A stretch of 64,000 nt of DNA from Paenibacillus sp. PvR098 (lineage in GTDB: Bacteria; Bacillota; Bacilli; Paenibacillales; NBRC-103111): the NCBI RefSeq assembly GCF_017833255.1, contig NZ_JAFIBU010000001.1, positions 620,001 to 684,000 of the forward strand, read 5' to 3'. A program made the position numbers and the translations under genes. This document shows, one piece after another, positions 2,500 to 17,600 of the stretch (positions are counted from its first letter, which is position 1; every line of letters begins with the position of its first letter). Below the pieces are notes generated by a model. The model was not told the DNA's origin. It did not search any database and saw only the letters and a list, made by a program, of their open reading frames with translations.

Positions 2500-2565
2500 C
2501 GAAATGAGCATACATCCATAGCATGTTGATTCCGTATGGATTATTCATTTGAGGAGGAAGCACGT

Positions 2566-2865
2566 ATGAGTACAACGAGTTCAGGCTCTACATTACCCGA
2601 GAACGAAATGTTTATAGAGATGCTTGGCCAACATATTCTAATCGTTACCAAATCGGCGCAGTTAAATATTTTGGGTCAAACATTCAGGGGCATATTTACC
2701 GGCAAGCTATGCCATGTTGCAGACGGCTACATCACGCTCGATCCGGTTATTATCAAAATGTTTAATGCGCCTTTTTATCGTTTTCCTACACCGCTCCAAT
2801 ACCCGATTGAGCAAATCGCCAATTTTATGCCGTTTGATCCCGAGACCCGTTTGCCGCTAACTTAA
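2566..2865 (+). CDS. Small protein of the multicopper-oxidase locus (MnxE/MnxF-position)
   Basis: The 99-residue protein has a Ser/Thr-rich head and then a beta-rich core (GQHILIVTKSAQLNI, then GIFTGKLCHVADGYITLDP) that looks like a small SH3/Sm-type barrel. The start chosen is the ATG at 2566, eight bases after GAGGAGG; an ATG 30 bases upstream has no ribosome binding site. It is followed after 23 bases by a 94-residue protein and then by the giant multicopper oxidase. In marine Bacillus, MnxE and MnxF are two ~100-residue partners encoded directly upstream of MnxG. Position and size match, but I cannot confirm homology from memory of their sequences. Confidence 0.6.
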   Translation: MSTTSSGSTLPENEMFIEMLGQHILIVTKSAQLNILGQTFRGIFTGKLCHVADGYITLDPVIIKMFNAPFYRFPTPLQYPIEQIANFMPFDPETRLPLT

Positions 2866-3193: not shown

Positions 3194-6100
3194 TTGCTTA
3201 GATGCTTTCACATTGTAGCCATCCCGGTACGTATGGTCATCAACAGCTTCGGAGATCACGACCCCAACGGGATGATGTATGTTCTTAAAGAGAATGAAAG
3301 CCGGGTAAAAGAAGAGACTGCCCACAATCCGTTTACCCCCGTCGACTTGGTTCAACCGTTAGTTATTCGGGCAAATATAGGGGATGAAATAGAAGTTTTG
3401 TTTGAGAATCAGCTTCCTTTCAGTACGTCAATCCACATTCAACGGGCTGATTATCATGTGCAGACATCCGATGGCGCATTTGTGGGCTGTAACGATAACT
3501 CAACCGCTCCGCCATGCTCTCCCGGCCATGTCCAGCAGTACCGTTGGTCCGTCCATCTGGAGGGCATCCATTTATTCTTCGACCTCGGAAATACGCTGTC
3601 TAGTGAATGGGGGAGCAATGTTCACGGGCTGTTCGGAGCGCTCATCGTTCAACCGAAAGGTTCTTGGTGGACCGATCCCGTAACTGGTAAGCCCCTTAAC
3701 AGTGGAATTTACGCTGACGTGCATCATCCGCTGCTTCCATCGTTCCGTGAGTATGCCTGGATGTTCCACGACGAGATGGAGGTCAACGATTTAACGGGAC
3801 AAAATCCTATCGATCCGCATACACTGCAGCACGAAGCGTCGCACAGTGTAAATTACAGGGCTGAACCGATGCGAAACCGGATGCGTTTGCTGCAGGAGGG
3901 CGTTGTTTGTCCCGATTGCGAGGGGGAAGAGGTACATCACGATTCCTGGGTTTTTGGAGATCCGGCCACACCCATTTTACGCGCTTACGTAGGAGACCCG
4001 GTGAAAATTCGCCTTATGCACGGCGGAGTGAAAGAAACGCACGTATTCCACTATCATGTTCATCAATGGCTGTTTGAAGCGGAAGACCAGGATTCGGAGC
4101 TTATCGATTCGCAGGCAATTTCTCCTCAAACCTCTTACACAGTATCACCACTATATGGCGCCGGGAGCTTACAAGGCGCATTTGGTGATATTATCATCCA
4201 TTGCCACTTGTATCCGCATTTCACCGAGGGAATGTGGGGGATGCAGCGGATATTCAATACGCTGCAGGATGGCGGTCAATGTTATCCGAACGGGGTCCCG
4301 ATCCAGGCGTTACAACCCTTACCGGGTCGCCCCCATCCGCCCAGGCCAACTCCGGAGAAACCGGGTTTCCCAGGATTTATCCCCGGTGTGGTGGGATATA
4401 AGGCACCACGCCCTCCGATGGGGATTGTAGGAGGACGTAAAGCTACGTCGCTGGAAAAGAACCAATTTGCCCCCAATGCCAGCCCGGGCGCCGTTTTTGT
4501 TAACCCCACTACGGAAGGAATTCCAGAGCGGAATTACCATATTATAGCGATGGAGTTGCCTATTGTCTATAACAAGCAGGGCTGGTACGATCCACACGGA
4601 AGAATCTTTGTTCTGGCAGAGGATGAAGAGGATATCCGCTCCGGCCGGAAGAAACCGGTGCCGTTGGTTATATTCGCCAACTCGGGTGACTGCGTGAATT
4701 TAAAATTGACAAATAAGCTACCGGAGACGTTAGGGGGCAATGCGTTTCAGCTGGTGAACCGAACATATGAGGCGGGACTGCACGTTCATTTCGTTAAATT
4801 CGATCCGCTCTCGTCGGATGGGGCGAATGTGGGCTGGAACTATGATAGCAGCCTGATGCCTGGAGAAACGGGGCATTATCAATGGTACTGTGAGGTCGAA
4901 CTAAGGGGCACGTTCTTCCATGACCATCTGTTTGCGAACTCGCATCAGCAGCATGGGTTATTCGCTGGCATCAACATTCAGGCAAGAGGCTCCAAGCATC
5001 TGGATCCACATACCCTCAAAGTCATTCGAAGCGGTACGCAAGCGGTGATTACCAATCCTCTAATTCCAGATTTTCGTGAGCTGACCTTATTCGTGCATGA
5101 TTTCACGATGCTCTTCGATGCCGACAGCTGTCCATTGAACCAGCCTCCGTTTCCTGGTTCCCCAGACGATCCGGGCGTCATGGGGATTAATTACCGCAAC
5201 GAGCCATTGCAGTTTCGTCTGAAGCCGGACTGTGATCCCGCGTACGTGTTCAGCTCCTATGTCCATGGAGACCCGTGTACGCCTCTGCTCCAAACGTACA
5301 ATGGCGATCCAGTACGCATCCGTTTATTCCAAGGGGCGCATGAGGAATCTCACAGCTTTAATCTGCACCGGCAGCGATGGCATCAGGAGCGCCGAGATCT
5401 GGACTCAGAAATCGTGCAGCAGCAGCATATCGGCATATCGGAGCATTATACTGCGGAGTTTTATGTCGATGGAGAAGGCGATTTTGATATGCTTTACCAT
5501 TTCGGGTCCATCGATGATCTATGGGTTGGCAATTGGGGCATCATTCGCAGCTATGAATCAGAAGTGCAGCATTTACCGCCGCTGCCGGACAGGAAGCCGC
5601 CAAGGCAAAGAAAGACACCGCTGCCAGTCCCTACAGGGGAGCTGCCGCCGCCTGCTCCCGACCCTGGAAACCCTTGTCCGCCCAATGCTGTAACGAGATG
5701 CTATGAGGTCGTTGCCATGCAGACGCCTATCGTGTACAACGAGGCTGGGGATCACGATCCTTTTGGCATTGTGTTCGCTCTTGCAGAAGATGTTTCTGCC
5801 ATTATAAACAAACAGAAGAATCCGGAACCGCTTATTTTGAGGGCTAATGTAGGCGATTGCGTAGAAGTTACACTGCACAACCGCTTATCCTGCGATGTTC
5901 ATAATGATATGATTCATGGCTATCCCGGTGTGCCAGTGGAAGCTCCGTTCCCGCCTTCGTTCCGAATTTCGCTGCATCCCCAGTTCCTTGTTTACGATGC
6001 TCGGGGCTCCGATGGCGCCACCGTAGGCTTCAATCCGGATCAAACGGTAGGACCGGGCTGCAGTATCACGTACCGATGGTATGTTGATTTGGAGCTAGGC

Positions 6101-7012
6101 TCCTGCAATCTTTGGGATATGGCGGATTTGCGTAACCACCGGCACCATGGTGCGTTCGGCATTCTGATCATAGAACCTAGAGGCTCTAAATACCTGGACC
6201 CTGTTACCCGTAAAGAAGCGGTCACAGGAAGCCAGATGATTATCTCCAATCCGCTCCTTGGAGAGTTTCGTGAATTCGTCCTCCTCATGCACGACGGCGT
6301 AAGGCTGGTTGACAGAGAAGGGAATCTCATCCTCGATCCGGAACCGCCGATTCTCATGGACAATGCGGAAGCGGATATCGAAGACTTCGAGGACCAAGGC
6401 TCTCGCGGGTTCAACTATCGGGCCGAGCGATTTAGACACCGGTTATTGCGAAACCCAGACATTGCGAAAGTATTCAGCTCTAAAGTTCATGGCGATCCAT
6501 CCACCCCTGTTTTTCTGGCTTATGCAGGGGATCCGGTGACGGTTCGTTTCGTGTTTCCTTCCGACAGGGCGCGTGCCCACGCCTTTGTAATGCATGGGCA
6601 CGAATGGTATCGCAGCTCTGACGATTTGAATTCAACGGTGGTAAGCGTACGCGGCCAAAACACGGTAGGTTCCTCAGACGATATTTATCTTGGTTACGGA
6701 GCAGGCAGCATGTTCAATATTCCGGGTGACTATATGTACCGGTCAGGCAATATTCGGTGGGATGTGGAGTTAGGGCTTTGGGGATTCATTCGCGTGCTGG
6801 GTGAACACTGTCATTTCTTGGCGCCATTGAAAGATTCCCGTATAGTCCAGCTTGCAGCTCCTCCGGCGAATTCGGATGGGACTCTGTCTAGTAACGTGAA
6901 GAAGGAGACTAGGGAGACATTTCAGGAGGTGATTAACAATGACGAAACAACGGTTCAAAGACGTCAGCCCTGGCGTGCCTTGTCCCGAATCATCAACCAT
7001 ATCCGTACCTGA
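3194..7012 (+). CDS. mnxG: Giant six-cupredoxin multicopper oxidase, MnxG-like putative Mn(II) oxidase
   Basis: The 1272-residue protein has three repeats starting near residues 4, 447 and 836 (HIVAIP, HIIAMELPIVYN, YEVVAMQTPIVYN), joined by Pro-rich linkers; each probably holds two cupredoxin domains. Copper ligands are unevenly kept. Repeat 1 carries HVFHYHVHQW (283-292) and the type 1 motif HCHLYPHFTEGM (336-347). Repeat 2 carries HVHFVKFD (530-537) and HDH (576-578) followed by HQQHGL. Repeat 3 and the remaining positions are degenerate, for example LHPQFLVYD and AFVMHGHEW. One mononuclear plus one trinuclear site can thus be assembled between repeats 1 and 2. Size and layout fit MnxG, the spore-surface manganese oxidase. 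No signal peptide is visible, as expected for a spore-layer protein made in the mother cell. The start is TTG after AAAGGAGG. Confidence 0.75.
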   Translation: MLRCFHIVAIPVRMVINSFGDHDPNGMMYVLKENESRVKEETAHNPFTPVDLVQPLVIRANIGDEIEVLFENQLPFSTSIHIQRADYHVQTSDGAFVGCNDNSTAPPCSPGHVQQYRWSVHLEGIHLFFDLGNTLSSEWGSNVHGLFGALIVQPKGSWWTDPVTGKPLNSGIYADVHHPLLPSFREYAWMFHDEMEVNDLTGQNPIDPHTLQHEASHSVNYRAEPMRNRMRLLQEGVVCPDCEGEEVHHDSWVFGDPATPILRAYVGDPVKIRLMHGGVKETHVFHYHVHQWLFEAEDQDSELIDSQAISPQTSYTVSPLYGAGSLQGAFGDIIIHCHLYPHFTEGMWGMQRIFNTLQDGGQCYPNGVPIQALQPLPGRPHPPRPTPEKPGFPGFIPGVVGYKAPRPPMGIVGGRKATSLEKNQFAPNASPGAVFVNPTTEGIPERNYHIIAMELPIVYNKQGWYDPHGRIFVLAEDEEDIRSGRKKPVPLVIFANSGDCVNLKLTNKLPETLGGNAFQLVNRTYEAGLHVHFVKFDPLSSDGANVGWNYDSSLMPGETGHYQWYCEVELRGTFFHDHLFANSHQQHGLFAGINIQARGSKHLDPHTLKVIRSGTQAVITNPLIPDFRELTLFVHDFTMLFDADSCPLNQPPFPGSPDDPGVMGINYRNEPLQFRLKPDCDPAYVFSSYVHGDPCTPLLQTYNGDPVRIRLFQGAHEESHSFNLHRQRWHQERRDLDSEIVQQQHIGISEHYTAEFYVDGEGDFDMLYHFGSIDDLWVGNWGIIRSYESEVQHLPPLPDRKPPRQRKTPLPVPTGELPPPAPDPGNPCPPNAVTRCYEVVAMQTPIVYNEAGDHDPFGIVFALAEDVSAIINKQKNPEPLILRANVGDCVEVTLHNRLSCDVHNDMIHGYPGVPVEAPFPPSFRISLHPQFLVYDARGSDGATVGFNPDQTVGPGCSITYRWYVDLELGSCNLWDMADLRNHRHHGAFGILIIEPRGSKYLDPVTRKEAVTGSQMIISNPLLGEFREFVLLMHDGVRLVDREGNLILDPEPPILMDNAEADIEDFEDQGSRGFNYRAERFRHRLLRNPDIAKVFSSKVHGDPSTPVFLAYAGDPVTVRFVFPSDRARAHAFVMHGHEWYRSSDDLNSTVVSVRGQNTVGSSDDIYLGYGAGSMFNIPGDYMYRSGNIRWDVELGLWGFIRVLGEHCHFLAPLKDSRIVQLAAPPANSDGTLSSNVKKETRETFQEVINNDETTVQRRQPWRALSRIINHIRT

Positions 7013-7670
7013 CACTTTGGATTGTTCCTGTCCGAGGCCCATCACGACACGGCGCTTCCCATCGCCGAACAGTCCGCTTCGACCCAAAGATCTCGAACGA
7101 TTGAAGGAAAGCATCGAAGCAGCTAATGAGCTGCTTCGCACCCTTGGCAATCCTCGAGAGCCGGATAATCTCAGAGAGCTGCAGCTGCATTTTCGTACTC
7201 TTCGCGGTGTAATGGTGAGAATATCCGTCGACTGTACGGACGCAGTCATTCATTTGGTTGGCCGGGTGGAAGACGCGGGGAGGGACTTCCTTCAAATCAA
7301 TGCAGTTGGGCAGCAGGTGTTTGTTTTATATGATCGGATATGCCTTATCCACCAAGAAGAGTGCAAGGATTCTATCGTGGACACCCAGGAATTACGGGAT
7401 GCGGATGCATGCCTTCGTCGCGACCTTGTTTTGCATTTCGGAAGTTTTGTATCCGGTAATCCATACCTGATGAATTTGTTCTTCGGGCTTCCGCTCCATT
7501 GGTATTTGCTGCAGTTTGTATGCTGTGAGGTTGTAGTGCATAAAGTAGGGGAAGAGGGTCCGATACGCGGAATATTGGTCGGATCGGACAAAGAACAGGT
7601 TATCCAAATTCAAAAAGGTAATAAACTGGAGCAAATCAAATGCAGTGAAATCTGCTATCTGACGATATGA
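6939..7670 (+). CDS. Two-barrel Sm-like/CotB-like protein overlapping the oxidase gene
   Basis: The 243-residue protein begins at an ATG preceded by AGGAGGTG, inside the last 74 bases of the oxidase gene in another frame. A Pro/Ser/Cys-rich head of ~45 residues leads to a helix and barrel 1 (VMVRISVDCTDAV, GRVEDAGRDFLQI, QQVFVLYDRICLI). A helical link follows (LRRDLVLHFGSFVSGNPYL), then barrel 2 near the C-terminus (GILVGSDKEQVIQIQ). The same order, including LRR-L-x3-FG-x3-GG/SG, is found in the convergent gene at 7716-8432, so the two are paralogues. Barrel 1 resembles the N-terminal part of CotB-type coat proteins. It is probably a coat or complex-assembly partner of the oxidase; no enzymatic motif is seen. 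Confidence 0.65.
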   Translation: MTKQRFKDVSPGVPCPESSTISVPDTLDCSCPRPITTRRFPSPNSPLRPKDLERLKESIEAANELLRTLGNPREPDNLRELQLHFRTLRGVMVRISVDCTDAVIHLVGRVEDAGRDFLQINAVGQQVFVLYDRICLIHQEECKDSIVDTQELRDADACLRRDLVLHFGSFVSGNPYLMNLFFGLPLHWYLLQFVCCEVVVHKVGEEGPIRGILVGSDKEQVIQIQKGNKLEQIKCSEICYLTI

Positions 7671-7715: not shown

Positions 7716-8432
7716 TTAACGCTTTAAGATACGGTCATAGAGTCTGAGGGAAAGATTCAGCATATAGGGAACCGTCATCTTTATTCTTCTAAGCTTAATG
7801 TAATCCACGTCACGCAGATTCACGTCGAATCTGTTTTTTGCGTTTTGCAGGGAAAGCGTTCCAGATGCTGCATAAACGATTTTGCCGGAATGCATAGTCT
7901 CATTAGCCGTAACCGTTACACTTGCTCCTTTCCAGCTTTGGAGACTGGTTTGGAGCGAATCCTCGTAAAATTGCTGTTTTAAGATATCGTGCCCGCCTAC
8001 CGTTTTGCCAAATTGAGTAAGCAGCCTTCTTCTTAGTTGTTCATCAAATACAACATGTTGATGTGTATTGGAAACATCAGGAAGACCGGCAGGGATATTG
8101 GAGGATTGAATACTGCGATAGGGAATCCAAATTCGGTTCCATAGCGTAGTCAGGACAACAAAGTCCCTGCCTATATTCGCCACCTTCCCTAAAGTATGCT
8201 GTTTATGAGCTCCGATGCTTGACACAATCTCAACCCGCTGATTTCGTTTGTGCTTAAAAAATTTGATTAGCATCAGGTTTTTTTTCTGACGGGGTAAAGA
8301 TTCGCTTAATTTCTGCAGGTTCACGTCATGGATATATTTTTGAAGCATTTTTAATTCGTAATCCGGCAGTGGACTGGCCGGGGAGGTATACTTTTCTTCT
8401 TCACGATTTGGACGGTCGGGTGATTTTTCCAT
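7716..8432 (-). CDS. Two-barrel Sm-like protein, paralogue of the 6939-7670 product
   Basis: The 238-residue basic protein has a charged N-terminus, a helical stretch, then barrel 1 (RVEIVSSIGAHKQHTLGK, VANIGRDFVVLTTLWNRIWI, YRSIQ) around residues 65-110. The link helix LRRRLLTQFGKTVGGHDIL follows, then barrel 2 (ASVTVTANETMHSGKIVYA). It mirrors the architecture of its convergent neighbour and shares the GRDF(V/L)-x-L core with the other small proteins of the locus. A GGAAGGTGG ribosome binding site precedes the ATG. It lacks the Cys/Pro-rich head of its paralogue. A spore-surface or nucleic-acid/protein-scaffold role is possible; nothing indicates catalysis. Confidence 0.6.
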   Translation of the reverse strand: MEKSPDRPNREEEKYTSPASPLPDYELKMLQKYIHDVNLQKLSESLPRQKKNLMLIKFFKHKRNQRVEIVSSIGAHKQHTLGKVANIGRDFVVLTTLWNRIWIPYRSIQSSNIPAGLPDVSNTHQHVVFDEQLRRRLLTQFGKTVGGHDILKQQFYEDSLQTSLQSWKGASVTVTANETMHSGKIVYAASGTLSLQNAKNRFDVNLRDVDYIKLRRIKMTVPYMLNLSLRLYDRILKR

Positions 8433-8565: not shown

Positions 8566-8979
8566 ATGATCTCTTTGTATTGGGTTATTTTACTCAGCTA
8601 TTTTATCGTAGGTGCGGGAGCGTATATTTATTTAATGAAATCCCGGTATTTGATAGGCTATCATCTTGGAATGAATATCGCGATGACGGCTAGCGGGGTG
8701 ATCGGATTAGCGGTAGGGACTGTGCTCGGCTCCCAATTTCCTTCCCACGAAAGCATGGTTACCGTGGTGACTACAGGTATAGCGGTCCTGACGGGTATCT
8801 TGTTCGGAGCGCTAGTGGATTACCAAACTCTCTTAACCGGCGTGTCAAGCGGTATCATGTCAGGTTTAATGGGGCCGATGCTTGGGCTGCATTCCTCGCA
8901 GCCATTTTTCTTAATTCTGCTTTGTACGTTGTTGGTTTTTATTTCTTTTGCTTTGCTATGTTTTTCTTTGAGGGTATAA
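8566..8979 (+). CDS. Small integral membrane protein upstream of copCD
   Basis: The 137-residue protein is almost wholly hydrophobic with about four membrane segments (near residues 3-24, 33-55, 61-85 and 108-134) and Gly-rich turns (GVIGLAVGTVLG, GVSSGIMSGLMGPMLGL). The gene starts after AGGAGG and its stop lies four bases before the copCD start, so the two are probably translated from one message. No family is recognised with certainty. Context suggests a membrane partner of copper handling. Confidence 0.65.
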   Translation: MISLYWVILLSYFIVGAGAYIYLMKSRYLIGYHLGMNIAMTASGVIGLAVGTVLGSQFPSHESMVTVVTTGIAVLTGILFGALVDYQTLLTGVSSGIMSGLMGPMLGLHSSQPFFLILLCTLLVFISFALLCFSLRV

Positions 8980-8983
8980 AGGT

Positions 8984-10621
8984 ATGCCGAAGCGAAGGGA
9001 GGGGGTGAGGCGGCTGATAAGGAGTCCATGTAGAAGTAAATTACACTTGCTGTACCGAGCAGCTCTGTGCTTTATGATGATGTTTTCGATCTTCCCCAAG
9101 GATACGTACTCACATGCATCTCTCGTTGCAGCCGATCCCTCTCCAGACAGTGAATGGATTTCTTCACCGCCGGAGATCCATTTGACTTTTAGTGAAAGAA
9201 TCGACCAAGGGCTCTATTACCTCAAAGTATTTGACGATAAGGGCAACGAAGTGGCGGGTAATGAAGCGAGTGTAAGTGAAGATCGAATGGTCCTGCGATT
9301 AAGTTTGCCTACTCTGGCTAACGGAGTGTATACCGTATCTTACCGTATCATATCCGAGGACAGTCACCCCGTTCGCGGTACTTACATTATCTTTGTGGGC
9401 ATCCCTCGTTCGAATGCGGATCATAGCGTCAGTAATCCGTCCTCTACACGGGGGTTTTCCGAGAGCATCATTTATGCGGCCAACGGCATTTATCTATTAA
9501 GCTATCTTCTCTTGATAGGCTGGATAGGCTGGGGAACTGTTTTTCGTCCTTTTACCGCGGTGGATGAATTAAGGAAGGGATACCTCCTTGGGACTCAGGT
9601 TATGCAGCAAATCCATTTGATGTCGTTAATCCTCCTCATGTTACTGTTGTCGAGAGATATCATATCTAGTTTGAAAGGTACGGAGGAGCTTAAGCTTCCG
9701 TTAGGATCGCTTTATGGTGTGACATGGATGGCGCTTCTGTTGCTTTCCATTACGGGGTTCTTCACGCTGCTGCGCTCCAAGGTATGGGACAGAATATGGG
9801 TCGTATTGATGGTAGGAGTCAAGAGCTTGAGTGGGCATGCGATTACCTTAGGCCCTCCGTTGGTTACTGTTCCGTTAAATGCCATTCATTTACTGGCGGC
9901 GGGGGTTTGGGTGGGCGGCCTCCTATTGATCGTGATGAATTGGCGCCGACACCAATTGTATATGCGTGTCTTTATAGCCTTATTTTCTCGAACGGCGATG
10001 ATTTGTATCGCTTTATTATCTGTTTCGGGTATCGTCTCTGCCGAAATGTTCTTGCCTAAACTTAGGTATGTGCTGGAGACTCCATGGGGGCTGTTGATAG
10101 GTATTAAGTTGGCGCTTATATTAGGCGTTGCAGTGATAGGCGCTGTCTTAAACGTTTCTGTTAGACACAGCAGATTTATGAACATTAGCACGTGGTTGAA
10201 ATGCGAAATCGGCCTAATGGTAGTCATCGTCATGGTGGTCGGTGTGTTGGTTCATCAGAAGCCGACTCCCGAGAATAAGCCTCTATTGTGGGAAGACGAG
10301 TGGAATCAAGCGCACATGTCCGCACAAATCGTTCCTAATATACCGGGGATCAAGAACCGATTTATTGTGGACATTGCCGTTTCCGATCCTGATGCTGAGC
10401 CCAAAAATATAGAAATGCGGTTGTATCCTCGAAGTCACCCGGAGATCGCTCCTATTCGAGTTCCGTTAAGTTATGAAGCTCATGATGATGGTGTCAATAT
10501 TTATTCAACAGAAGGGGCATATGTGCCTTTTCCAGGCCGTTGGACCGTTGAGATCCGTATTCAAGATAAGGAAGATAACGAACAGGTTTATCGTCGTCAG
10601 ATTGAGGTTTTTGCTCCTTAG
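8984..10621 (+). CDS. CopC-CopD fusion copper transport/resistance protein with C-terminal YtkA-like domain
   Basis: The 545-residue protein has a signal-anchor (residues ~22-42) ending at SHAS, from which the CopC domain starts: HASLVAADPSPDSEW, HLTFSERI and the copper-side motif SEDSHPVRGTY. Eight or so membrane segments of a CopD domain follow (residues ~155-420), including GVWVGGLLLI. The tail (residues ~445-545) looks like an extracytoplasmic YtkA/FixH-type beta domain ending in PGRWTVEIRI. This layout is the YcnJ type of Bacillus, which imports or buffers copper. The N-terminal His after SHA can bind copper once the signal is removed. Beside a large copper oxidase it plausibly supplies the metal. 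The start ATG has a weak ribosome binding site, suggesting coupling to the upstream gene. Confidence 0.85.
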   Translation: MPKRREGVRRLIRSPCRSKLHLLYRAALCFMMMFSIFPKDTYSHASLVAADPSPDSEWISSPPEIHLTFSERIDQGLYYLKVFDDKGNEVAGNEASVSEDRMVLRLSLPTLANGVYTVSYRIISEDSHPVRGTYIIFVGIPRSNADHSVSNPSSTRGFSESIIYAANGIYLLSYLLLIGWIGWGTVFRPFTAVDELRKGYLLGTQVMQQIHLMSLILLMLLLSRDIISSLKGTEELKLPLGSLYGVTWMALLLLSITGFFTLLRSKVWDRIWVVLMVGVKSLSGHAITLGPPLVTVPLNAIHLLAAGVWVGGLLLIVMNWRRHQLYMRVFIALFSRTAMICIALLSVSGIVSAEMFLPKLRYVLETPWGLLIGIKLALILGVAVIGAVLNVSVRHSRFMNISTWLKCEIGLMVVIVMVVGVLVHQKPTPENKPLLWEDEWNQAHMSAQIVPNIPGIKNRFIVDIAVSDPDAEPKNIEMRLYPRSHPEIAPIRVPLSYEAHDDGVNIYSTEGAYVPFPGRWTVEIRIQDKEDNEQVYRRQIEVFAP

Positions 10622-10691: not shown

Positions 10692-11303
10692 TTAGTGCTC
10701 AGGTTCATCGTGCGAACATGGCTCGCACGGCTGATGAGGCGGACTTGGATGGCAAGGATGGCAATTCGAATCGAGCCAGGTGACCTTACAGATTTTTTCC
10801 GTCAATAATGTAACCACCGTATGATTGTCTTTGATCACACTCACATAGTTGGTTCCTACACTGCAAATTTTGCCTCTGATCGAGTGGCCGTTCCCATTAC
10901 CGCTATGACCTGTTCCTGGAGCGACATCACCATCGCCGTTATCTCCGCCGCTGCCTTCGTTACATTGGCATTCATAATCGACTTCGATTTCGCAGCCTTT
11001 ACCGCGAAGCAATTGAAAATTAAGATTGCCGGTAAGACCCCCAAGATGTAAACGATCATGACAGAACGGGATATGGTGGTATCTCGGGGAAAAGGCAGGG
11101 TAGTGTTTGCCGCAGCCGCAGTGACCGTGGTGGTGATGCTGCTTGTGGCAGCCGCAGTGACCGTGGTGGTGATGCTGCTTGTGGCAGCCGCAGTGATGGT
11201 TGTGGTCCATTTGTTTAAGTAATTCCTTGCATTGCTGGTATTTTTCCTTGTATTTTCTGTACTGATTCTTGTAGTGCTTGTACCTCTCGTTATAATCGAC
11301 CAT
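10692..11303 (-). CDS. His/Cys-rich spore-coat-like protein with coiled coil and Sm-like barrel
   Basis: The 203-residue protein has four visible parts. Residues 1-33 are a Tyr/Lys/Gln coiled coil (NERYKHYKNQYRKYKEKYQQ). Residues ~34-66 form a metal-binding tract with two copies of CGCHKQHHHHGH plus CGCGKHY. A central Gly/Asn/Asp-rich linker follows. A barrel near residues 140-175 (RGKICSVGTNYVSVIKD, LLTEKICKVTW) resembles the DUF2642/CotB-type cores of its neighbours. The Cys/His/Pro-rich tail (CHPCHPSPPHQPCEPC) adds further ligands. The start follows GAGGAGGTGAT, and a sigma-K-like promoter lies just upstream. A late mother-cell coat protein that binds copper or manganese is the best reading. 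Confidence 0.7.
   Translation of the reverse strand: MVDYNERYKHYKNQYRKYKEKYQQCKELLKQMDHNHHCGCHKQHHHHGHCGCHKQHHHHGHCGCGKHYPAFSPRYHHIPFCHDRLHLGGLTGNLNFQLLRGKGCEIEVDYECQCNEGSGGDNGDGDVAPGTGHSGNGNGHSIRGKICSVGTNYVSVIKDNHTVVTLLTEKICKVTWLDSNCHPCHPSPPHQPCEPCSHDEPEH
11115..11196 (-). repeat. 36-bp tandem repeat encoding the CGCHKQHHHHGH units
   Basis: Two identical 36-base units (11115-11150 and 11151-11186) and a partial third start lie inside the His-rich gene. Identity at the DNA level, not just the protein level, points to recent duplication and likely length variation between strains. Confidence 0.9.
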
Positions 11304-11968: not shown

Positions 11969-12517
11969 TACATAACTTAGACGGGTGTGAACACTGACCT
12001 CTTGTACCGAGGGTGGGAATAGCTTGCTTAAAACTGATACTTTAATGAATTGAAGCCGTGCGCTAATGAAAGTAACAAGTTTCAAGCCTGTACCTCCCTC
12101 TAACTCTTCATCTTAAGTTTTATTGTATTCTAATCCGTTAAGGGTGGAATGGATTAGAAACTATTTAATTTATAATACATGAAAGACTAGAACGTTACCT
12201 CGGACAACTTAATATTATAACTTGAGGAGAAGAAACACCAATCACCTTTTGATAGATAGGGGAATACAGGTCTGCGACTTTTTGAAGCACGGCTGAGATG
12301 GCAAAAGTGATGGAGAACACCCAAAAATTTGTAAACATTTCTTTTATGAATGTTTTTGATACTAAAAATGTAACCCGCACATTCGGACCGTTGGATCACG
12401 TTATATATCTGTAAGCAACTCGGTTAAATACTTTTCTAGGAAATATGGAACGATTTGATCTGTAACCGAGTATGATAGAACAACATTATTTTCACTGATT
12501 TGAAAGGAGTGAATGCG
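11969..12517. other. Non-coding stretch after the epimerase relic
   Basis: No convincing gene is seen in these ~550 bases, though two overlapping minus-strand frames near 12187-12399 stay open without recognisable similarity. Two inverted repeats stand out: TCTAATCC (12129-12136) with GGATTAGA (12151-12158), and ACTCGGTTA (12418-12426) with TAACCGAGT (12463-12471). The second lies just upstream of the kinase gene and could be an operator. Confidence 0.4.
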
Positions 12518-13048
12518 ATGATGAAAGAAACAAACAGCAGTAAGGAGTACCATTTTATTGGAGAGGGCAAGCAGGGGAGGGTTTTCCGAATATCTCCTAA
12601 TTGCTGCATTAAAGTGTATAGTGAAAAAAGACATGCAGAGAGGGAAAGGAAAGCATATCAGGCGGCGCAGGGATCCCCGATCATTCCCAAGCTTCATGAA
12701 TACGGGTCAAACTATATTATTATAGACTATGTGCAAGGACCTACGCTCAAACAATATTTAAAAGAGAAGGGCTATATTTCCAAATCCATTACGGAACAAA
12801 TTTTGTCATTATTAAAAGAACAGGAACGGTTGGGTTTCACACGGATCGATGCCGCTGTACGCCACATCTTTATAACGGAAGATATGAATCTTAAGCTAAT
12901 AGACTTAACGAACTGCTACCAGCATACAAGCTCCGCTCCCCGCATGCTGCTTAAAAGTTTGAATAATATGGGCTTCCTGCATTCTTTTTTGGAGCATGTA
13001 AAGGGGTTGGATCCAACATTGTATTCCAAATGGAAAAAGATGATATAA
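12518..13048 (+). CDS. Small eukaryotic-type protein-kinase-like protein (YrzF-like)
   Basis: The 176-residue protein has a compact kinase fold. It shows a Gly-loop FIGEGKQGRVF (residues ~13-23), CIKVYSEKRH with the ATP-lysine, a hinge YIIIDYVQGPTL, a catalytic-loop region IDAAVRHIFIT and a DFG-like LKLIDLTN. It is far shorter than standard Ser/Thr kinases but matches the reduced YrzF type of Bacillales. The start is the ATG eight bases after AAAGGAG; a TTG 18 bases upstream is in frame but overlaps the ribosome binding site. Paralogues lie at 18170 and 18842 (minus), plus a truncated copy at 11399. The substrate is unknown; neighbours suggest a sporulation or surface role. Confidence 0.7.
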   Translation: MMKETNSSKEYHFIGEGKQGRVFRISPNCCIKVYSEKRHAERERKAYQAAQGSPIIPKLHEYGSNYIIIDYVQGPTLKQYLKEKGYISKSITEQILSLLKEQERLGFTRIDAAVRHIFITEDMNLKLIDLTNCYQHTSSAPRMLLKSLNNMGFLHSFLEHVKGLDPTLYSKWKKMI

Positions 13049-13119: not shown

Positions 13120-13899
13120 TTATTTTTGGCTGGAGTGCCATATCGGAAAATGCTTCTGGAGTTTCCCTATGGCCCTATCCACACGTGACTTTCGATAATA
13201 CAAATATTCGGTCAATGCATGGATTTCATCCCGCTTCAATCCCCATTCCTTGGGGATGCCCTCAATGGCTTCACTAATATCAGATTTGCTTAATGATTCA
13301 ATCGCCTTCAGATCATCGTGAAAAGGATCTTTACCATCAATGTATCGGACAAACCTCTTGTACATATCTCCCCAATACACCTTTGATTTGTTTTGGTTTT
13401 TATTCAATGAATCTACTGACCATCTTGGACCGTCGAAGCAATTGGCATGGTCAATCATGATGATGTTGTTCTGCACAATTAACAGATTGGATGTACTTCT
13501 GTTATGTCTATCCCAATTATGAATCCAATGGTCAAAAGCGATCATTCCGGAAGCCTTGTTCAAGTTCTTACATTTGGAAATCAGTTTTTCGTTATCGGTT
13601 TCAACTGCTCCTTCATAGTAACAAATCCCCAAATGCGGCCCACTTTCAAGTTTCATATCTTTTAATGAAGGATACAAACTAATCAGTCCCTCGGAGATAT
13701 AGATCACCTGACACTCGCCCACCGGAAGATTTAACATGCTCCCAAGCTTATAGGCAATAAATTCATTACTAAGCGTCTTTTTCCCCAAGGGGTTATTTTT
13801 GAATTTAACGACATATTTTTTGCCGTCTATACATCGAAATAATTGCGGCTTGGTCCAACCTCTGCCGATCGGACCTAAATATTGAACCGCATCAAGCAT
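13120..13899 (-). CDS. HipA-like kinase domain protein
   Basis: The 259-residue protein aligns along its length with the product of 19684-20460. Shared blocks are GWTKPQLFRCIDGKKYVVKF with the ATP-binding Lys, NEFIAYKLGSMLNLPV, the catalytic block MIAFDHWIHNWDRHNRSTSN and the metal-binding block IMIDHANCF. These correspond to the HipA-type D-R-x-x-N and D-H/D-F motifs; the family is the short stand-alone HipA_2 type, not the HipBA toxin. The ATG follows AAGAGGTGACA. No antitoxin-like HTH gene is adjacent. The substrate is unknown; co-location with glycosyltransferases and YrzF-like kinases is notable. Confidence 0.75.
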   Translation of the reverse strand: MLDAVQYLGPIGRGWTKPQLFRCIDGKKYVVKFKNNPLGKKTLSNEFIAYKLGSMLNLPVGECQVIYISEGLISLYPSLKDMKLESGPHLGICYYEGAVETDNEKLISKCKNLNKASGMIAFDHWIHNWDRHNRSTSNLLIVQNNIIMIDHANCFDGPRWSVDSLNKNQNKSKVYWGDMYKRFVRYIDGKDPFHDDLKAIESLSKSDISEAIEGIPKEWGLKRDEIHALTEYLYYRKSRVDRAIGKLQKHFPIWHSSQK

Positions 13900-15412: not shown

Positions 15413-15680
15413 GGATTATCCAGCACTCCTTCTTTCATAATGTGACTGATGTACCTATATTGTATGGTCTAAGCGGAGTTTGGATTGGACGAAAGCAGGA
15501 GTCTAGTAAATATAGACAGGGGCCTGATTTTGAACTATGCAGGTTACTGGTCCATGTCCATATTTTAGTCAAAAGCATACAATTTAAAGAGACGTTCGAT
15601 CCATGCCTATAGTGGTTCGTTTATTTCATGATGCAGAACCGTTGATCGTAGTACTGGAAACGTTGGAAAGGAGAACGGAG
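15413..15680. promoter_or_regulatory. Divergent promoter region of two glycosyltransferase-like genes
   Basis: CATACAAT, the sigma-E -10 consensus, is present on the minus strand near 15453-15460 and on the plus strand at 15576-15583, each facing its gene. Neither has a well-spaced sigma-E -35 element, so sporulation control is only suggested. Confidence 0.35.
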
Positions 15681-17600
15681 ATGGACCCATTTAAAATAAA
15701 GGGCAACAAGCGATTTTTGGTTATTGCCAGAGTAGGCGACTCCTCTCTCCACCAGGAGTGGTTGCAGCCGGCAGAGTACAAAAATTTCGACCTATGCCTC
15801 AGCTATTTTGACAGTCAGCCGGGGCGGTTCTCAGAGGATTGCGATTTTTATCATCAAGCTCCAGGAGTAAAATGGCCTAAGCTAAAAGAAATTATTGCCT
15901 TATTCGGAGAGCAGATGGACCATTATGACGCGGTTTGGATGCCTGACGATGACATTAGTACCAATGCATACGATATCAATCGGATGTTTGAGCTATTTAT
16001 GCAGTATGAGTTGGAATTGGCTCAGCCGGCTTTGACCAGCGATTCGTATTATTCACATAAGGTCACGTGTGTAAATAAAGAGTATCGTTTAAGATACACC
16101 CAATTTGTCGAACCCATGGTTCCGATTTATTCCAGGGAAGCATTCCGTGTCCTCTTGCCTACATTTGAGAAAAGTGAAGCCGCCTATGGGCTCGATTTCG
16201 TATGGCCGAAGGTGCTCGGTTACCCTCACAAAAAAATCGGTATCATCGATGACGTCCCTATGAAGCATACAAGACCTGTTGGCGGAGGAACGTTATATCA
16301 GAACATAACCAATAACCGATGGGATGATTTTCATCGTGTGACCAAGGAATATGATGTCGAAGTCAATTGGCATCCTACGCATTATGATGGCGTACCTAAA
16401 GGGACAAAAGTGATGTTTGCCGTGCTTGCTCAGCATGAGGAGAAGGTGCTTGCCGCCCAATTGGATAACATACGTCATTATAATCCGGATGCAGGCATCG
16501 TAGTTTATAATGCAGGCAAGGATAGGGAAATGGCAGCCCATGTGAATGCTCTCATATGCCCAAACAGTCGTCCGGATCGTTCGGATAACTTTGCCCTCTT
16601 TATGTGGGATGTAATGAACTGGCTTCACAATAATAAGGTAGAGTATGAATACTTCATTACCCTCAATAATGATATGCTGTTTGTCAAACACGGCTTTGAT
16701 TCCTTCCTTGATAAGACGATGAAATATTCGGATTGCATGGGATGGAATTTGCAGAGGTTCTCGAGTAAGGAAGAGGCTGATGATGACTCCAAAAAATCGA
16801 TGTGGAAGGAAAGTCGGAAATGGAGCTCCCTTTTAGGGGATGAAGGGTTTATTCGTTATTATTCTCCAGCTCAGGTATACCGTCGCGAGATTGTCAAACG
16901 AATGATTTCAGCCGTTACTCGTGCAGGAGTGGCTAACAAAATTGCTGAATCGGAAGTCCAGTCGCTCGCAGAATTCTTCTTCGTTACACTTGCTGCGTCT
17001 TTAAAAGGCCGATGTCGGGAATACCCTCGGGACCGGATGCTCAATGTGATAAGCCATGAAAACGATGTAGATATGTCAAGGATGCAGCAGGCAGTCCATC
17101 ATGCTTACTATTACTTCATTCACCCGGTTCGAGGCCAACAGCTCATTGAGATGAAACACTGGCTGATGGGTGGTGATGCGGTGCAGGAAAATGATTCAGT
17201 TCAAAACGAACAGATGGCAGAAAACGAGACACAGCAGGAGCAGCAGGAGCAGCAGGAGCAGCAGGAGCAGCAGGAGCAGCAGGAGCAGCAGGAGCAGCAG
17301 GAGCAGCACAGTATTGGAAGGCGGAAGAGGAGACGGAAGGTCGTACGGGGTAAAAAGAAAATCTGGAACAAAAGAAAAATAGTAAGGGGTAAGAAAAGGG
17401 CTATACCCAGGAAGGCATTCAAAAAAACGTTGAGCAAAAAGGCAATACCGAGAAGAAGACGCATGATCAAAAGACCACTTAAAGGGAGAACTGTTCAACG
17501 CAAGGGGATTCCTAAAAACAAAGTGAATAATTCCTCACAGACGGTTTGGAAAAATATACAAAAATCCGCACCGTCAGGCAAACAAATCAAGGCTGCTTAA
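15681..17600 (+). CDS. DUF707 plus glycosyltransferase-like protein with (QQE)8 tract and highly basic tail
   Basis: The 639-residue protein has a DUF707 domain (residues ~1-245: NKRFLVIARVGDSSLHQEW, VWMPDDDIS). A second GT-like domain follows (residues ~250-500: KVMFAVLAQHEEKVLAAQL, YFITLNNDMLFV) related to the one at 13970. Then come eight QQE units (near residues 518-541) and a ~95-residue tail dominated by Lys and Arg. The start is the ATG eight bases after AAGGAG; an in-frame ATG at 15603 lacks a ribosome binding site. DUF707 proteins are thought to be glycosyltransferase-like. The basic tail could hold the protein on anionic polymer or DNA. Substrate and location are unknown. Confidence 0.65.
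   Translation: MDPFKIKGNKRFLVIARVGDSSLHQEWLQPAEYKNFDLCLSYFDSQPGRFSEDCDFYHQAPGVKWPKLKEIIALFGEQMDHYDAVWMPDDDISTNAYDINRMFELFMQYELELAQPALTSDSYYSHKVTCVNKEYRLRYTQFVEPMVPIYSREAFRVLLPTFEKSEAAYGLDFVWPKVLGYPHKKIGIIDDVPMKHTRPVGGGTLYQNITNNRWDDFHRVTKEYDVEVNWHPTHYDGVPKGTKVMFAVLAQHEEKVLAAQLDNIRHYNPDAGIVVYNAGKDREMAAHVNALICPNSRPDRSDNFALFMWDVMNWLHNNKVEYEYFITLNNDMLFVKHGFDSFLDKTMKYSDCMGWNLQRFSSKEEADDDSKKSMWKESRKWSSLLGDEGFIRYYSPAQVYRREIVKRMISAVTRAGVANKIAESEVQSLAEFFFVTLAASLKGRCREYPRDRMLNVISHENDVDMSRMQQAVHHAYYYFIHPVRGQQLIEMKHWLMGGDAVQENDSVQNEQMAENETQQEQQEQQEQQEQQEQQEQQEQQEQHSIGRRKRRRKVVRGKKKIWNKRKIVRGKKRAIPRKAFKKTLSKKAIPRRRRMIKRPLKGRTVQRKGIPKNKVNNSSQTVWKNIQKSAPSGKQIKAA
17232..17306 (+). repeat. 9-bp repeat tract encoding (QQE)8
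   Basis: Eight perfect CAGCAGGAG units form a low-complexity Gln/Glu linker in the DUF707 fusion. The perfect DNA repetition implies slippage-prone length. On the minus strand it opens spurious Leu- and Cys-rich frames. Confidence 0.95.

Follow-up and report, generated by a model that had tools for sequence, protein, structure and literature searches.

How does a protein with six cupredoxin domains arrange its copper, and which metal does it oxidize? Both questions are raised by mnxG, a gene in a stretch of 64,000 nucleotides of Paenibacillus sp. PvR098 (contig NZ_JAFIBU010000001.1, positions 620,001 to 684,000), which is called the window here and from whose first letter all positions are counted. 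Mn oxides act as powerful oxidants in nature, and few enzymes that make them have been purified, MnxG among them; the window adds a well-conserved mnx cluster in a single-contig genome. The gene very probably codes for the catalytic component of a complex that oxidizes Mn(II) on spores, made up of MnxG and a MnxE3F3 hexamer. It is accompanied by two partner genes, for which the solved Mnx complex of Bacillus sp. PL-12 (PDB 9bxa) serves as reference:

3194..7012, + strand: mnxG, six-cupredoxin-domain multicopper oxidase, 1272 amino acids, TTG start; matches 9bxa_A
2536..2865, + strand: mnxE, matches MnxE (9bxa_B, E=1.4e-25); the true start is likely ATG 2566, behind GAGGAGGAA
2889..3173, + strand: mnxF, matches MnxF (9bxa_E, E=2.8e-17)

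Identity of the window protein

The open reading frame (ORF) has the coordinates, strand and length that an earlier sequence-only reading, made without database searches, had assigned to it, and AAGGAGG is found ~7 bases 5' of its TTG start. The same reading had called the product MnxG on account of its size and surroundings, and this name is borne out: residues 1-1204 of 1272 match PL-12 MnxG (9bxa_A) with E=0 and 1650 bits, and mnxE and mnxF lie directly upstream of mnxG. Identity amounts to 59.2% with MnxG of SG-1 over 1221 columns and to 61.7% with PL-12 MnxG over 796 columns, the latter covering residues 1-795 of 9bxa_A only. The predicted AlphaFold 2 (AF2) model agrees with 9bxa_A at template-modelling (TM) scores of 0.92/0.91 and displays the same six-domain fold. 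Judged by its sequence, the window protein is a relative of the characterized MnxG enzymes over its full length.

Pfam recognizes a single domain (PF07732, residues 58-155), and an assignment of six domains from Pfam alone was dropped. The six-domain layout follows instead from the 9bxa match together with internal repeat matches; the six domains would correspond to three repeats of two domains each.

Copper ligands in domains 2 and 3

Multicopper oxidases combine a mononuclear type 1 (T1) site with a trinuclear site of type 2 (T2) and type 3 (T3) copper; the roles given below are those that we take the ligands to have from the standard pattern of these enzymes. Domain boundaries are approximate.

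3890..4276, + strand: cupredoxin domain 2 (residues ~233-361), holds the T1 site plus one half of the trinuclear one
4040..4069, + strand: motif HVFHYHVHQW (residues 283-292), T1 H283, T2 H286, T3 H288
4199..4234, + strand: motif HCHLYPHFTEGM (residues 336-347), T3 H336 and H338, T1 C337, H342 and axial M347; includes E345
4526..5098, + strand: cupredoxin domain 3 (residues ~445-635)
4781..4804, + strand: motif HVHFVKFD (residues 530-537), T2 H530, T3 H532
4919..4927, + strand: motif HDH (residues 576-578), T3 H576 and H578

The four motifs, as quoted in the sequence-only reading, are each present in one copy, starting at residues 283, 336 (HCHLYPHFTEGM), 530 and 576. They make up a complete ligand set, in which domain 2 houses a single T1 site and shares the trinuclear ligands with domain 3; the proposal of a copper centre between internal domains, not between the first and last ones, thus holds. 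All 12 ligands are invariant in 40/40 rows of the first alignment, which comprises the window protein and 39 sequences picked from 120 listed, out of 3209 found. The same is true of the two branches of the family described below, with 21/21 rows in the branch of the window and 57/57 in the other. These 78 rows are longer than 900 amino acids and include the window, the excluded sequences being a 604-amino-acid ORF (L015), a distant homologue (L075) and PL-12. L075 carries all 12 ligands and the PL-12 sequence of 9bxa 11, owing to an engineered Ala: H342 aligns with the Ala of the solved H340A complex. Invariance of this extent is far beyond chance.

In domains 1, 4, 5 and 6, no full ligand set is found, and each has lost at least half of its ligand positions in the first alignment. 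The other two domain interfaces nevertheless appear, from the aligned residues, to be worn rather than erased, because their leftover histidines are nearly invariant among the 78 rows: H720 and H725, in the second half of repeat 2, occur in 78/78, H928 in 77/78, H1134 and H1136 in 77/78 (with one gap), H81 of repeat 1 in 76/78 and H1129 in 70/78. The description of repeat 3 as stripped in the sequence-only reading is accurate for the Cys and most of the ligand histidines, which are absent, and too strong for H928, H1134 and H1136.

Comparison with known multicopper oxidases

In two-domain (small) laccases, the trinuclear cluster is located at a domain-2/domain-1 interface between separate subunits of a trimer. 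Such laccases, for example PDB 4m3h, match the window MnxG in sequence, the best stretch being residues 233-353. In MnxG, the laccase-type domain interface is formed within one chain, and the domain 2/3 interface may be regarded as the one-chain counterpart of the subunit interface in the trimeric enzymes. Ceruloplasmin and hephaestin also possess six cupredoxin domains; the window MnxG differs from them by its site at domains 2/3 and its single T1.

The split copper centre is real, but not new: the layout was printed in 2013, and a MnxG structure has been solved. PMC3600357 (Vasin and co-workers, 2013) assigns the trinuclear site to the domain 2/3 interface for every bacterial six-domain oxidase analysed there, a list that takes in MnxG of SG-1, PL-12 and MB-7, and describes mononuclear sites just in domain 2 as well as leftover ligands at other interfaces. 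The internal copper centre of the window protein confirms this published work and adds nothing to it. The PL-12 complex (9bxa, H340A variant, released 2024-08-07) has the six domains and the MnxE/MnxF partners in common with the window. Its MnxG carries the same copper ligands except for the engineered Ala; it differs in having I at window E345, H at V1132 and A at H769, and belongs to the other branch. According to PMC5622069, activity in PL-12 requires mnxEFG at minimum, and the complex consists of MnxG and E3F3.

Substrate and the sister branch

For the window protein, we infer metal loading, Mn(II) as the substrate and a location on the spore; oxidation of Mn(II) to Mn(IV) would be expected from homology. 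Electrons from Mn(II) would first reach the domain 2 T1 copper and then cross the Cys-His bridge, from C337 to H336/H338, to the trinuclear cluster at the domain 2/3 interface, where O2 would be reduced to water. At the surface of the spore, Mn(II) would thereby become Mn(III) and finally Mn(IV) oxide.

Several points weigh against this assignment. The NCBIfam model NF041487 (copper_ox_MnxG) yields 305.6 bits for the window protein, far below its curated cut-off of 3100, and the protein is not filed under this model; at 1894 positions, NF041487 far exceeds the Bacillus enzyme and seems to describe a bigger namesake from pseudomonads. The AF2 model is of middling quality, with a predicted local distance difference test (pLDDT) score of 65.6 and a predicted TM score (pTM) of 0.64, and alone it is no proof of the site geometry because several copper loops have pLDDT <50 (e.g., 289-306, 340-345, 533-552 and 578-588). 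SG-1 and PL-12 fall into a separate group of 58 rows in the MnxG tree, supported by a value of 100 in the Shimodaira-Hasegawa-like approximate likelihood ratio test (SH-aLRT), and we know of no assayed member of the window branch. Finally, substrate preference may differ, judging from an acidic residue beside T1: position 345, which precedes the axial Met by two residues, carries E or D in 21/21 rows of the window branch versus 2/57 of the other.

The branches were defined as follows. A scan of named genomes, limited to the best 80 among 590 confirmed places, gave 79 mnxG loci, a sample that is no measure of abundance, and the tree was built from 80 rows (78 scanned loci, the window and PL-12) by a quick method and without an outgroup, leaving it unrooted. 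The window group had first been set by an identity of at least 65% to the window, and the tree served as a test only afterwards. In this tree, the window and 20 others lie on one side of a branch with SH-aLRT 95, and the distant L075 joins the window side. At 23 positions, the two sides are fixed differently at a level of at least 90% on both. H769 occurs in 20/21 rows of the window branch versus 0/57, and H at position 1132 in 1/21 versus 53/57; L075 has E at 345 and lacks both H769 and H1132. A rebuilt T1 site in domain 4, with H769 at the Cys position, was considered and rejected: H769 falls on the T3 position of the H336 type, not on that of C337, being 12 residues back from the conserved W781, as H336 is from W348 (counted by eye). 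The window branch has a two-residue insertion relative to SG-1 and PL-12. Three genomes carry both branches among the fetched loci: Peribacillus cavernae (L004, L028), P. glennii (L009, L050) and Bacillus sp. V59.32b (L068, L046). Among relatives of the host, one of 39 genomes searched (24 of the same genus) contains a MnxG match, 71% identical, which gives 2/40 with the host included. Among the literature matches listed for MnxG, there is no paper on two MnxG branches.

Neighbouring genes were counted in the fetched stretches only; eight of the compared loci are shorter than 20 kb, the window was trimmed to 20 kb, and it contains only 3.2 kb upstream of mnxG. Mnx genes were detected by profile search and the CopC-CopD fusion by BLAST (E <= 1e-5). 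MnxE is a neighbour in 20/22 loci of the window branch versus 52/57 of the other, MnxF in 19/22 versus 53/57, MnxD in 19/22 versus 52/57, and a MnxA-like protein in 12/22 versus 46/57; the CopC-CopD fusion is found in 9/22 versus 0/57, and a MnxC-like protein in 0/22 versus 40/57. The MnxC contrast is weakened because 17/57 loci of the other branch also lack it in the fetched stretch, including close PL-12 relatives (L032, L038 and L047, with MnxG ~96% identical to PL-12 over 795 residues); the absence of MnxC was accordingly discarded as a sign of lost function.

The main rival to a Mn(II) oxidase is compatible with the family assignment and refines it: the window protein would be a metallo-oxidase of the MnxG fold from a sister branch, acting mainly on Fe(II), Cu(I) or an organic reductant, with weak or absent Mn(II) oxidation. 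It draws on the separation from the assayed SG-1 and PL-12 enzymes, on the acidic 345 together with the loss of H1132 and the gain of H769, and on the CopC-CopD neighbour; different jobs for the two branches are further suggested by the three genomes that hold one fetched copy of each. This change of substrate is rather unlikely, given that MnxE, MnxF and MnxD are retained beside mnxG in most loci and that every copper ligand is unchanged. Related to it is the tentative and similarly doubtful proposal of a sister MnxG paralogue that operates on the MnxEFG complex with a T1 site retuned by the acidic 345, other leftover histidines and a different copper-related neighbour, and that handles a different metal or makes a different Mn end product; on the unrooted tree, H769 would have been gained at the dead interface 4/5 and H1132 lost at 1/6. 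If true, in organisms whose genomes hold both branches, a single spore would carry two metal oxidases that complement each other. The window directs attention to a second MnxG branch with a clear, testable sequence difference beside the substrate-oxidizing copper.

A structural coat protein of degenerate cupredoxin domains with no working copper site is very improbable: the losses in four of the six domains would fit it, but the one complete ligand set that is left does not vary in any of the 78 rows. A ferroxidase of the ceruloplasmin type, whose cluster would sit at the interface of domains 1 and 6, shares the six-domain fold class (ceruloplasmin rows of the first structural match list have query TM scores, TMq, of 0.50-0.52; none is among the 50 rows listed in the second), but is refuted by the ligand positions, which are mostly lost there, H81 being the sole histidine among the four trinuclear positions of domain 1 and domain 6 reading YRS at the place of the Cys motif, and by the TM score of 0.92 to 9bxa versus 0.50.

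MnxG homologues with all copper ligands were also encountered in Tissierella creatinophila (L076) and in two metagenome-assembled genomes, of Clostridiales (L010) and Ammonifex (L075). These groups count as anaerobes, where an O2-using enzyme is odd, unless it acts on dormant spores.

The mnx gene cluster

Downstream of the presumed Mn(II) oxidase gene, the cluster continues with five genes:

6939..7670, + strand: homologue of the SG-1 gene that follows mnxG (273 amino acids there), MnxD paralogue; 27.8% identity, E=4.8e-19
7716..8432, - strand: mnxD homologue, 43.6% identity to SG-1, E=1e-56; two LSm-like barrels predicted
8566..8979, + strand: small mnxA/mnxB-like protein; SG-1 MnxA 41.5%, E=2e-22; MnxB 35.0%, E=8e-11
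8984..10621, + strand: CopC-CopD fusion, after the MnxA-like gene
10692..11303, - strand: His-rich protein, with matches near 28/79 fetched mnxG loci (E<=1e-4)

The ORF of the first of these shares 74 bases with the 3' end of mnxG. The SG-1 locus (L077) has the order mnxA, B, C, D, E, F, G, the 273-amino-acid gene and a His-rich gene, the names mnxA to mnxD being given there by gene order. It shares with the window the MnxA/B-, D-, E- and F-like genes and the gene after mnxG; in the window, however, the order is rearranged, the MnxD-like gene lies downstream on the opposite strand, and a CopC-CopD fusion is present. The fusion may possibly supply copper, and the His-rich product is probably a spore-coat protein. 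Within its first 20 kb, the window yielded no Sco-like MnxC, and a search of the whole genome for the Sco family gave two genes above the cut-off, both far from the window.

Profile comparison identifies MnxD as a paralogue of the protein encoded after mnxG, with probability 99.85 and E=1.6e-30. The MnxD model consists of two small five-stranded barrels with pLDDT mostly >90. In a Foldseek search with this model, a Pyrobaculum virus protein (2x4j, E=1.6e-4) is the top row and the only one below 0.001; it is followed by GerQ, a protein of spores (E=0.015, probability 1.00), and further rows include an LSm domain, MnxF of 9bxa (E=0.035, probability 0.99) and many Hfq chains. On the basis of these models, the mnx cluster may be built of Sm-like ring modules around one oxidase. 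MnxE and MnxF were not retained as sequence relatives of the MnxD family, the profile comparisons being weak (probability 25 for alignments A3-A4 and 0.5 for A3-A5); the comparison of MnxE with MnxF gave 61.5. When A2 and A3 were used as profiles to search the PDB sequences, no match fell below E 0.06.

Other features of the window

A HipA_2-like kinase is encoded at 13120-13899 on the - strand (E=7.6e-23), flanked by an ORF at 12500-13048, with a protein-kinase match below the cut-off, and by a 480-amino-acid ORF with no Pfam match above it. At 15603-17600 on the + strand, a 665-amino-acid protein has a DUF707 match (E=1.8e-9), which is followed by a Gln-Glu repeat and then by a long tail rich in Lys and Arg. 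Close to the start of the window, at 294-388 on the - strand, lies a cyclic di-GMP riboswitch (c-di-GMP-I), whose score of 60.3 bits exceeds the gathering score of 35.
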